From Gammaproteobacteria bacterium (lineage in GTDB: Bacteria > Pseudomonadota > Gammaproteobacteria > Acidiferrobacterales > Sulfurifustaceae), in contig JACQFZ010000042.1 in assembly GCA_016199745.1 (NCBI GenBank), positions 1 through 64,000 of the forward strand: a DNA stretch of 64,000 nt, in the 5' to 3' direction. The position numbers were made by a program, and so were the translations under genes. Positions 12,418-50,750 of the stretch are shown here, in pieces. The notes below the pieces were generated by a model that saw only the letters and a program-made list of their open reading frames with translations, was not told the origin of the DNA and did no database searches. Positions within the stretch are counted from its first letter, which is position 1. Each line of letters starts with the position of its first letter.

Positions 12418-12580
12418 CCTCAACACGGCCGCGTTTCAGCTTTTGAACGCGTCGTCTGAGTCCAAGAACTGTAACTTCAACCCACACATGGGTCGTCACG
12501 TGCGTCTGGGTGCTTGCCCGTTCTAAGAATGGGGCGAGTTGACGCATGGGATCCATGGCGGAATAACCCGAGGAGAAATC
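12418..12580 (+). promoter_or_regulatory. rpsB 5' leader, structured (candidate S2-binding leader)
   Basis: The 312-nt map-rpsB gap holds the promoter above and this leader. Two hairpins are visible: ACCCA/TGGGT at 12480-12493, and CTTGCCC (12513-12519) pairing with GGGCGAG (12532-12538) with an inner TTCT/AGAA. The leader ends with GAGGAG 6 nt before the rpsB ATG. In other gammaproteobacteria the rpsB leader binds S2 for autogenous control. That role is inferred from position and structure, not shown by sequence identity. The remaining upstream part (12269-12381) shows nothing else I can name. Confidence 0.5.
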
Positions 12581-25167: not shown

Positions 25168-26356
25168 CCAGCCCGGCCTTGTTTCCCACGAGGAGCGAGG
25201 GGCTCCTGTAAGGTTGGGCATTGTCGCCGGTGAAACGTCGGGTGATTTGATCGGCGCCGGCCTAATCCGCGAACTCAAGAAGCGGTTGCCGAACGTGATC
25301 GTCGAAGGTATCGGCGGTCCGCGCATGCAGGCCGAGGGCTGTGTCTCACACCATGAGATGGAGCGCCTGTCGGTCATGGGCCTCGATGGCATCGCCAAGA
25401 TCCCGGAGATTCTTCGCATTCGTCGGCAATTGGCCGAACGTTTCCTGAAGACGCCGCCGGATCTTTTTATCGGTATCGATGTCCCGGACTTCAATCTCAC
25501 GCTGGAACAACGCTTGCGATCTGCCGGTATTACCACGGTGCATTACGTCAGCCCAACAGTATGGGCGTGGCGTCGTTATCGACTGCGCAAGATCAAACGC
25601 GCGGTAGATCACATGCTGACGATATTCCCGTTCGAAGCGCGTTATTACGAGGAGCATCACGTCCCGGTGACGTTCGTCGGTCATCCACTGGCTGATGAAA
25701 TTCCCGAAGACTATGATCCGCGGGAGATGCGCCAGCGCCTCGGCTTACCGCTCGCCGGCACTCTCGTTGCATTGCTGCCCGGTAGTCGACGCGGTGAGTT
25801 GCGCTGGCATGCGGCCTTATTTGTGCGCAGCGCCCAGTGGCTATATGCGCGTCATCCAGAGCTCCATTTCGTCGCGCCGTTTGCCAGCGCCGATACACAA
25901 ATGTTGTTCGAACAGGCGCTGATAGAAGAGGGTGCGACTAATTTGCCGATCACGCGCTTGCTGCATCGCTCACGCGAAGCATTGGCAGCGAGCGACGTGG
26001 TGCTGGCAAAATCCGGCACGTCGACGCTGGAAGCGGCGTTGCTCAGGAAACCGATGGTAGTGACGTATCGGGTGTCGGCGCTGACGTATGGATTCGCGCG
26101 CCTTTTTGTGCGCGTGCGCCACTATGCGTTGCCGAATCTCCTTGCTGGCCGACAGCTTGTGCCCGAGCTGATACAAAGTGATGCGGTACCGGAGAAACTG
26201 GGACGCGCCATCGAACAATATTTAGAACATCCGGAGCAAGCGCAGTCAGTACAGATCGCGTTAGCGGAGATGCATGCATCGCTCAAGCAGAATGCGGATG
26301 TGCGGGCGGCGGAGGCGGTGGTGCGGATTTTGGCGGTACGGTTGGGGGGTAGTTGA
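25148..26356 (+). CDS. lpxB: Lipid-A-disaccharide synthase
   Basis: Inverting glycosyltransferase (GT19) that joins UDP-diacylglucosamine and lipid X into the lipid A disaccharide. The core starts GIVAGETSGDLIGAGLI and continues with EGIGGPRMQAEG, YVSPTVWAWRRYR, LLPGSRRGELRWH and AKSGTSTLEAALLRKPMVVTYR, all diagnostic. The start is uncertain. ATG 25148 gives 402 residues but sits inside a palindrome without a ribosome site. TTG 25214 gives 380 residues, like E. coli (382), with GAGGGG 11 nt upstream. The stop codon touches repeat element A. In many relatives rnhB and dnaE follow; here a repeat island and the T2SS genes do. Confidence 0.94.
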   Translation: MFTEHSRQPGLVSHEERGAPVRLGIVAGETSGDLIGAGLIRELKKRLPNVIVEGIGGPRMQAEGCVSHHEMERLSVMGLDGIAKIPEILRIRRQLAERFLKTPPDLFIGIDVPDFNLTLEQRLRSAGITTVHYVSPTVWAWRRYRLRKIKRAVDHMLTIFPFEARYYEEHHVPVTFVGHPLADEIPEDYDPREMRQRLGLPLAGTLVALLPGSRRGELRWHAALFVRSAQWLYARHPELHFVAPFASADTQMLFEQALIEEGATNLPITRLLHRSREALAASDVVLAKSGTSTLEAALLRKPMVVTYRVSALTYGFARLFVRVRHYALPNLLAGRQLVPELIQSDAVPEKLGRAIEQYLEHPEQAQSVQIALAEMHASLKQNADVRAAEAVVRILAVRLGGS

Positions 26357-26642
26357 ATCGCCCTCTTACGAGGGCGATGCTGGTCGAGGTAATAAATGTA
26401 AACAGCGGGATGCTCCGCCCCGCAACCCAGGGTTACTTTTCTTTGCTTGTGCAAAGAAAAGTAACCAAAAGAAAGTACCCCCCCCGGTGGCGCAGACATG
26501 CCACTGCGCTTCTCGGGATTAGGCCGGCGCACTCGCACACGCCATCCCTGGCGTGAGCGAGAGGAACCGGCTCCTGCCGGTTCCCCTTCGGGCTTCTGCC
26601 TAAACCCTGCGAGGCTCGGGCATGCGCCACAGGGGGATTAAC
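26355..26642 (+). repeat. Large structured repeat, copy A
   Basis: One of three related elements (B and C on the opposite strand). Paired parts in order: TCGCCCTC/GAGGGCGA (26358-26377); GCGGG/CCCGC (26405-26423); a 16-bp stem 26431-26466 with loop TTGT; GCGCAG/CTGCGC; then an outer stem TTAGGC (26519-26524) with GCCTAA (26598-26603) enclosing two hairpins. H1, 26532-26561, is CTCGC, A, CACGCCA, loop TCCC, TGGCGTG, A, GCGAG. H2, 26563-26584, is a 9-bp stem with loop TCCT. It ends GGGGGATTAAC. It starts at the last bases of the lpxB stop codon. No protein is credible here. Confidence 0.8.
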
Positions 26643-26699
26643 GGCAACCGCAACGACAACGACAACGGCAACCACAACAACAACCGCCCTCACCCTAAT

Positions 26700-26722
26700 C
26701 CTCCCCCGCTGCGCAGGGGAGG
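26700..26722. repeat. G/C-arm hairpin, island 1 left
   Basis: CCTCCCC and GGGGAGG pair across a 9-nt loop. It lies between the CAACAACAAC tract that follows element A and the REP-like copy 2. The counterpart in island 2 is at 50258-50283. Confidence 0.6.
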
Positions 26723-26730
26723 GGATAAAT

Positions 26731-26802
26731 GTCGGGTGGGCAGCATTGCTGCCCACCCGTTATTAGAATCCGCGTGGGCAAAAAAGCGTTGCCCACCCTA
26801 CA
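26731..26802. repeat. Palindromic REP-like repeat, copy 2
   Basis: Begins GTCGGGTGGGCAGC and ends GCGTTGCCCACCCTAC around ATTAGAATCCGC. It is the same family as 4291-4368, and nearly identical in its right half to 50321-50390. It is placed between the two G/C-arm hairpins, at the centre of the lpxB-gspN island. Confidence 0.8.
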
Positions 26803-26806
26803 ACAG

Positions 26807-26850
26807 CCACCCTAACCCTCCCCCGCTCTAGCGGGGGAGGGTTAGGGTGG
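26807..26850. repeat. 20-bp perfect hairpin, island 1 right
   Basis: CCACCCTAACCCTCCCCCGC (26807-26826) pairs exactly with 26831-26850 around loop TCTA. It is followed by GGGGTG and a GTTGTTGTTG tract that leads to element B. The counterpart in island 2 is at 50403-50428. Strong enough to stop or pause polymerase, but without a U-tract. Confidence 0.75.
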
Positions 26851-26887
26851 GGGGTGTGTGATATGGGTTTTTGCAGTTGTTGTTGCT

Positions 26888-27170
26888 GTTAATCCCCGTG
26901 TGGCGCATTCCGAGCATCGGAGCTTTTGGCCTCGACGCGCGCAGGAGGCGCGCGGTCTGGCTCAGTACAGGGATGTACTGTGCCAGACATAGTTAGTGAG
27001 CCAAAAGTGAGAAGCGCAGGAAGGTTTTGCGCCACCCCGGGGGGTGCTTCTCTTTGGTTACTTTCTCTTGCACAAGCAAGAGAAAGTAACCCTGGGTTGC
27101 GGGGCGGAGCATCCCGCTGATTAGAATTTATTACCTCGACCATCATCGCCCTCGTAAGAGGGCGATTCCT
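26888..27170 (-). repeat. Large structured repeat, copy B
   Basis: An inverted relative of A and close relative of C. Given on the plus strand: outer stem CTTTTGGC (26923-26930) with GCCAAAAG (27000-27007); H2 at 26936-26954 (CGCGCGC, loop AGGAG, GCGCGCG); H1 at 26955-26988 (GTCTGGC, T, CAGTACA, loop GGGA, TGTACTG, T, GCCAGAC). Then come GCGCA/TGCGC-type pairing near 27014-27032, a 16-bp stem 27056-27091 with loop ACAA, and the terminal TCGCCCTC/GAGGGCGA hairpin 27146-27165. It ends 3 nt before the gspN stop codon. Confidence 0.8.
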
Positions 27171-27172
27171 AT

Positions 27173-49911: not shown

Positions 49912-50223
49912 GTGCTTAGCGTGCGACCCCTGCGGCTGGTGATCGTGGTGCTGGCCGCACTGTTTGTCATGTTGCAGTACGCGCTGTGGTTTAGCGACGG
50001 CGGCGTGTTCGTGACCTGGAAGCTGCAACGCGAGATCGCCGCGCAGGTCCAGGAAAACGCGCGCTTGAACGATCGCAATCAGACCTTGGCAGCGGAAGTC
50101 GTCGATTTGAAGCAAGGTCTGGCGGCGATCGAAGAGCGGGCGCGTGCTGAGCTCGGCATGGTGAAGAAGGGCGAGACGTTCTATCAGGTGGTGGATCCGG
50201 CGGTTAGTCCGGATAAGAAGTGA
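49912..50223 (+). CDS. ftsB: Cell division protein FtsB
   Basis: Small bitopic inner-membrane divisome protein that forms a complex with FtsL and FtsQ. The 103 residues have one N-terminal membrane segment (about 5-26, RPLRLVIVVLAALFVMLQYAL), then a periplasmic coiled coil (about 38-75, with QENARLNDRNQTLAAEVVDL) and the ARAELGMVKKGETFYQ motif. The start is GTG 49912, 8 nt after eno, the usual gene pair. The stop codon is directly followed by the second repeat island. Confidence 0.95.
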   Translation: MLSVRPLRLVIVVLAALFVMLQYALWFSDGGVFVTWKLQREIAAQVQENARLNDRNQTLAAEVVDLKQGLAAIEERARAELGMVKKGETFYQVVDPAVSPDKK

Positions 50224-50257
50224 ATAGCAACCACAACAACAACCGCCCCCACCCTAA

Positions 50258-50283
50258 CCCTCCCCCGCAAAGGCGGGGGAGGG
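50258..50283. repeat. G/C-arm hairpin, island 2 left
   Basis: CCCTCCCCCGC pairs exactly with GCGGGGGAGGG around loop AAAG. It follows a CAACAACAACCGCC tract that starts right after the ftsB stop. Counterpart of 26700-26722. Confidence 0.7.
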
Positions 50284-50320
50284 AATAAAAAAGCAAAACC
50301 AAAAACCTGCCCGCCGTGAT

Positions 50321-50390
50321 GTCGGGTGGCAGCTTTGCTGTTCACGCTGTATTCGAATCCGCGTGGGCAAAAAAGCGTTGCCCACCCTAC
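50321..50390. repeat. Palindromic REP-like repeat, copy 3
   Basis: Begins GTCGGGTGGCAGC and ends GCGTTGCCCACCCTAC around ATTCGAATCCGC. The right half is nearly identical to copy 2 (26731-26802); the left arm has lost one G and diverged, so its hairpin is weaker. Confidence 0.75.
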
Positions 50391-50402
50391 AACAGCCACA
50401 TT

Positions 50403-50428
50403 CCCTCCCCCGCAACAGCGGGGGAGGG
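50403..50428. repeat. G/C-arm hairpin, island 2 right
   Basis: CCCTCCCCCGC pairs exactly with GCGGGGGAGGG around loop AACA. TTAGGGTGGGGGGTG and a GTTGTTGTTG tract follow, leading to element C, in the same order as in island 1. Confidence 0.7.
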
Positions 50429-50474
50429 TTAGGGTGGGGGGTGAGTGAAATGGGTAGTTGTTGTTGCAGTTGCG

Positions 50475-50749
50475 GTTAATCCCCGTGTCGCGCATTCCGA
50501 GCATCGGCGCTTTTGGCCTCGAGCGCGCAGGAAGCGCGCGTCTGGCTCAACCCAGGGATGGGTTGTGCCAGACATAGTTAGTGAGCCAAAAGTGAGAAGC
50601 GCAGGATGCTTTGCGCCACCCCGGGGGGTGCTTCTCTTTGGTGACTTTCTCTTGCACCAGCAAGAGAAAGTCACCCTGGGTTGCGGGGCGGAGCATCCCG
50701 CTGATTACATTTATTACATCGACAGACATCGCCCCAACGGGGCGATTCA
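50475..50749 (-). repeat. Large structured repeat, copy C
   Basis: Closest to copy B. Given on the plus strand: outer stem CTTTTGGC (50510-50517) with GCCAAAAG (50585-50592); H2 50523-50539 (GCGCGC, loop AGGAA, GCGCGC); H1 50540-50573 (GTCTGGC, T, CAACCCA, loop GGGA, TGGGTTG, T, GCCAGAC). Then come GCGCA/TGCGC-type pairing, a 16-bp stem 50640-50675 with loop ACCA, and a terminal TCGCCCC/GGGGCGA hairpin. It ends 1 nt before the ygfZ stop codon. No credible protein. Confidence 0.8.
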
Positions 50750-50750
50750 A

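Follow-up and report, generated by a model that had tools for sequence, protein, structure and literature searches.

The 64,000-nt stretch of DNA analysed here (the window) carries, between two different pairs of genes, intergenic islands built from the same series of repeat modules, and this raises the question of whether the modules reached each locus independently or were copied together. Island 2 fills the intergenic span 50224-50750, between the ftsB stop codon (TGA, 50221-50223) on the left and the stop codon of ygfZ (minus strand; 50751) on the right, as read from the sequence. Island 1 (26354-27172) is located between the stop codons of lpxB and gspN. The flanking genes were identified with Pfam as DivIC/FtsB and GCV_T-type YgfZ in the case of island 2, and LpxB and T2SSN in the case of island 1.

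Module layout and palindromic structure

The modules of island 2 were delimited to within a few bases. Directly at the ftsB stop codon starts a remnant of the A-side (NNCAAC)n tract (ATAGCAACCACAACAACAACC; 50224-50246, plus strand), which matches the tract of island 1. This is followed by hairpin H1 (CCCTAACCCTCCCCCGC...GCGGGGGAGGG; about 50247-50283), recognized by sequence reading, module mapping and folding, by an inverted pair of GTAG-type REPs, designated B (about 50317-50391), and by hairpin H2 (about 50400-50440), the inverted partner of H1. The C-side (GTTGNN)n tract (GTAGTTGTTGTTGCAGTTGCGGTTAAT; about 50455-50481, plus strand) is in turn the inverted partner of the CAAC tract and ends in GTTAAT. 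The remaining part, element C (about 50482-50750), is composed of three minus-strand segments: (i) C mid (50482-50595), a branched hairpin block with GTCTGGC...GCCAGAC and GCGCGC...GCGCGC enclosed within TTTTGGC...GCCAAAA, (ii) C core (50596-50727), containing hairpins P1 (GCGGGATGCTCCGCCCCGC) and P2 (GGTGACTTTCTCTTGC-TGGT-GCAAGAGAAAGTCACC) and an AATAAA-rich spacer, and (iii) the terminal hairpin T (TTGAATCGCCCCGTTGGGGCGAT; 50728-50750), a separate self-complementary end that abuts the ygfZ stop codon.

This direct reading agrees with the original prediction, both in the order of the modules, which genome BLAST recovered at many loci, and in the description of island 2 as island 1 without element A. 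In a BLAST search of the own genome, island 1 matched 50224-50750 far beyond chance (E 9.7e-156; 83% over 522 of 527 bases). Island 2 consists of the C half plus the inner portion of the A half, and nothing of the A-side T, core or mid is left.

The original prediction also took A and C to be different modules, and here it has to be corrected: A and C belong to a single palindrome, as its two inverted halves. In island 1, the A half (T, core and A mid; 26356-26650, plus strand) is the portion missing from island 2, while the C half (C mid, core and T; 26885-27170, minus strand) is its inverted homologue. Within each half the reading order is T, core hairpins, mid, ATTAAC, (NNCAAC)n, hairpin H and GTAG-type REP B. 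When compared with its own reverse complement, by genome BLAST and likewise in a self-comparison, island 1 (26356-27169) showed 71% identity over 814 bp and is therefore an imperfect palindrome; its self-complement score was 528, whereas none of 138 random stretches of the same length exceeded 99. The RNA fold of island 1, in which the strand pairs end to end, reached -580.6 kcal/mol (shuffles -313.6 +/- 6.2; z -43), and the DNA fold gave a z of -48. Island 2 folded much more weakly (z -12.5). Since island 1 is palindromic from end to end, A inverts C, the CAAC tract the GTTG tract, H1 H2, and the left REP the right REP. Both islands are copies of a single ~0.8-kb nested imperfect palindrome, whose diverged inverted halves A and C join at the pair of GTAG-type REPs in its centre.

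Copies of the islands and their modules

The sequence 50224-50750 was used as a BLASTn query against its own genome, a draft assembly of 72 contigs with breaks caused by repeats. The search returned 87 matches, and the modules were mapped on 39 fetched stretches. The copies uncut by contig ends comprised (i) five full islands with both A and C (C25, C42 [island 1], C8, C56 and C14, the last with its A core split by a 1.2-kb insert), (ii) seven A-less copies (C42 [island 2], C46, C48, C31, C27, C49 and C52), (iii) one C-less copy (C1), and (iv) three C22 loci retaining the C core only. The order of modules was identical in all of them. Further copies, on C4, C30, C50, C51, C66 and C68, are cut by contig ends. 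At L019 (C52:35337) and L025 (C49:3541), the A-less island was duplicated along with the adjoining ends of its two neighbour genes; these two copies were counted as one event, which leaves six independent A-less copies. On their left, the A-less copies begin at module borders, namely the tract start (island 2, C27 and C49/C52), B (C46 and C48) or H2 (C31), and the left edge of the three C22 loci is the core border.

An alignment of 12 halves revealed 83-90% identity between the A halves of different islands and 87-96% between C halves, the latter even at loci with different centres. The identity between A and C was 73-77% inside one island and 69-78% across all A-C pairs. Every one of the four aligned full islands carries one A and one C (none is A+A or C+C), and A mid and C mid are each side-specific. 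Since A is most like A and C most like C between islands, not within them, and full islands pair A with C, the composite appears, judging from these alignments, to have been copied as one unit. Independent assembly locus by locus would not yield this pattern.

The proposal that the modules moved or were copied together, and did not insert independently, thus holds for the arms, with their fixed order and their A-A and C-C likeness, but not for the inner modules. REP B gave 34 matches in the genome, only six of them inside islands, with about 25 places outside, and hairpin H was found alone at about 12 genomic places. In module B, a GTAG tag stands at the foot of the palindrome (GTAGGGTGGGCAACGCTTTTTTGCCCACGCG, the right copy in island 2; 50360-50391, minus strand), its length lies within the 20-40 bp of GTAG REPs, and its copies are numerous and dispersed, as in the GTAG REP superfamily. 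It is clear that H and B, the inner modules, also move or are maintained by themselves. Hairpin T was present alone at six genomic sites.

Several copies differ in internal details. The P2 types are opposite in the two arms of each full island with a plain P2 (TTTCTCTTGC versus TTTTCTTTGC; three islands only). In six copies (L018-L021, L024 and L029) the P2 loop is exchanged for an extra hairpin of 50-60 nt (GGTGGTCGCTCCTGCGCATCCTGCGCTCGCGACATTC...), in L024 on both arms. The island located between modA and modB (C14:55715-57572; L016, 2516-4373) holds the 1.2-kb insert in its A core, with ORFs of 159 and 116 aa (without Pfam match) and a 223-bp copy of the modA 3' end (95% identical). At contig ends, foreign ends (..GATCAAGAGACAG / CTGTCTCTTGATCACA..) lie inside H2 of different islands (L021, about 1-141; L035, about 1-101; perhaps L013, 1-133) and resemble insertion-sequence ends.

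Of the 41 genomes of the order, with the own genome counted, 24 contained matches to the core. Palindromes of 260-720 bp occur at other loci of relatives, with self-complementary stretches of 259-583 bp at several loci of genome G006 and of about 680 bp in a MAG, and paired inverted arms are also present in other relatives and in Rudaea sp. The P1-P2 hairpins and the box that follows them are common to relatives, while the outermost hairpin varies between genera. Among 274 genomes of the class, the strict P2 pattern was found only in the own genome and one same-family relative, and was absent in the other 272; the exact 34-base C end had no match in the genome collection. T followed by the AATAA box was absent from all six relatives examined, which makes T specific to the own genome, the outer hairpin being different elsewhere. 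Phage records gave no island match, and in plasmid records only hairpins H and P2 were matched, chiefly H in Azospirillum. The hairpin matching the H hairpins of island 1 (26687-26731 and 26806-26860) is carried by 28 Azospirillum plasmid records, where the rest of the island is absent.

Stop codons and stem covariation at the island ends

The position of T relative to stop codons was surveyed at 37 ends (27 arm ends plus 10 sides of the six T-only sites), with genes called from a simple codon score for which the window served as training set. At 29 of the 37 ends a coding frame stopped -1 to +11 nt from T, and at four more a weakly scored frame had its stop 3-6 nt from T; there was no stop beside T at the right ends of C14 and C56 or at C68 and C4. 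TAG accounted for 18 of the 29 stops beside T, compared to 30 of 121 in other genes (Fisher p 2e-4). At most ends a TAG lies <=8 nt from T, at a distance varying 0-5 nt, and it is absent at ends without a gene. In several genes the TGA inside T itself serves as the stop codon.

Without an island, the ftsB-ygfZ spacer is 43 bp long in one relative, the only one of the same genus, and the lpxB-gspN spacer 63 bp in one relative of the same family; the island-free relatives are distant (YgfZ 56% identical), so these short spacers do not reveal the exact insertion points. The ends of LpxB and YgfZ lie close to those of the proteins of relatives, and the island therefore occupies a naturally short gap; truncation of genes by the element was rejected on the same grounds. 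The flanks that were read showed no evident direct repeat indicative of target duplication.

Hairpins T, P1 and P2 were compared on 17 arm ends, with 99.4% of cells paired and eight stem pairs altered on both sides. Two-sided changes were found in 40 cells, compared to 12.5 after shuffling (0/500) and 0-10 in slid controls. Copy correction between the palindrome arms in replication could produce part of this covariation without any function. A U tract after T is missing, so that T is not a canonical intrinsic terminator, and the matches of a terminator scan stayed near the shuffled level. The placement of the hairpins right after stop codons suggests a role at the transcript ends of convergent genes: T and the core hairpins would act in RNA as two-way transcription barriers or 3'-end protectors. 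Such an end function for head-on genes would preserve one arm bearing T even as the remainder of the island decays.

Strong structure combined with covariation would also be expected of a structured non-coding RNA gene or a cis-regulatory RNA of a known family. This we regard as very unlikely, as no Rfam family scored above the gathering cut-off in either island and island 2 has no promoter-like site; a known Rfam family was accordingly rejected as the identity of the islands. The sole Rfam match in the window is t44 at 12465-12567 (64.7 bits).

Origin of the composite and comparison with known repeats

The most likely reading is a BIME-like composite that has spread in one piece. It would have been multiplied as a whole, either through recombination among its copies or by a transposase that works on the hairpins in trans, and the A-less island 2 would stem from partial copying or from loss of the outer A arm. 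With all its parts taken together, that is, a REP/BIME-like composite multiplied as a unit, with island 2 as its A-less version and the end hairpins as RNA-level barriers, we consider this interpretation probable. Eight Y1_Tnp loci are present in the genome, and neither T nor B nor the arms flank any of them (E 0.05); a RAYT-borne element (REPtron) was rejected for this reason. Three Y1-transposase genes (L053, C57:153724; L054, C17:16760; L055, C38:9304) have other GTAG repeats alongside, and at L054 an H-like hairpin is present about 96 bp from the gene.

The A-less copies invite a more specific account, in which island 2 was a full palindrome whose A arm was lost once the arms had paired into a long hairpin, which was then either cut or bypassed in replication. 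Long palindromes are unstable, A-less forms exist with both kinds of centre, as repeated loss would produce, and the opposite P2 types of the three full islands are as expected if self-pairing arms are removed. However, the deletion would have to run from the stop codon exactly to the tract start, where island 2 retains no T, core or mid, and we hold this account as possible but somewhat doubtful. The same coincidence of A-less left edges with module borders would be natural if T, core, H and B were separate REP-like families that inserted into each other stepwise, the order reflecting a preference for hairpin targets. H, B and T do occur alone, H even by itself on Azospirillum plasmids, and REPs inside other palindromes are already known (PMC3733652). 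Nevertheless, such nesting is unlikely in view of the side-specific mids, the lack of A+A or C+C islands among the full ones, and the likeness of C halves around different centres; moreover, the arm core was not found alone amid unrelated sequence, save in the three C-core-only copies.

Segmental duplication, in which islands are carried along with their flanking genes, fits the gene ends shared on both island sides by C49 and C52. At all other loci, however, the flanking genes are unrelated, and as a general explanation it is extremely improbable; for islands 1 and 2 it is refuted by their neighbours (lpxB/gspN versus ftsB/ygfZ). Going beyond the preferred reading of a BIME-like composite, giant nested heterodimeric palindromes, whose outer hairpin is genus-specific and whose inner core is common, may form a distinct mobile repeat class in this gammaproteobacterial order, inserting between convergent stops and blocking transcript ends in both directions, a proposal that we make only tentatively and judge rather unlikely.

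Bacterial chromosomes usually shed long palindromes. Here, however, gene ends carry several retained copies of a ~0.8-kb palindrome whose halves have diverged and whose stems covary. Should this palindrome be mobile as a unit, the REP/REPIN idea is widened from tens to hundreds of bases, and if its ends are transcript-end barriers, there is a testable reason for such repeats gathering between convergent genes. The A-less copies constitute a natural series for asking which arm matters. Such islands also break short-read assemblies, and several contigs of the own genome end inside them.

A search among open-licence papers found no description of this family. YPAL, ERIC and other MITE-like repeats are single intergenic palindromes of 100-170 bp located near stop codons. 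By description the islands resemble YPAL and ERIC in being palindromic, intergenic and near stop codons (a related paper is PMC2759123), but are far longer than a single palindrome of that size; full islands additionally show a MITE trait, terminal inverted repeats, with T and core at both ends. TIR repeats adjoin degenerate REPs beside RAYT/TIRYT genes (PMC3733652). Like them, the islands fuse REP-like units with unrelated stem-loops in many copies; the island arms, however, have no Y1 transposase gene between or next to them.

The main sites of GTAG REPs are spaces between genes that converge or run in one direction; where the genes converge, the REPs mostly lie <20 bp from the 3' ends, and their tag often supplies its TAG as a stop codon (Di Nocera 2013, PMC3733652). 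REPs are 20-40 bp long, with dimer spacers of 20-100 bp, and heterodimers prevail in many families (PMC3733652; REPINs, PMC3116915); some REP dimers lie inside longer palindromes (PMC3733652). As in GTAG REPs and BIMEs, the islands are inverted palindrome pairs at gene 3' ends, with a GTAG tag on B, a preference for TAG at T and heterodimeric arms, and they form a mosaic of palindromes in alternating orientation, as BIMEs do. They differ from REP systems in that no cognate transposase was found, and from both REPs and BIMEs in size, with an 814-bp palindrome, nested arms of about 290-400 bp and at least four hairpin families. The islands share the habits of REPs, at a size an order of magnitude above.
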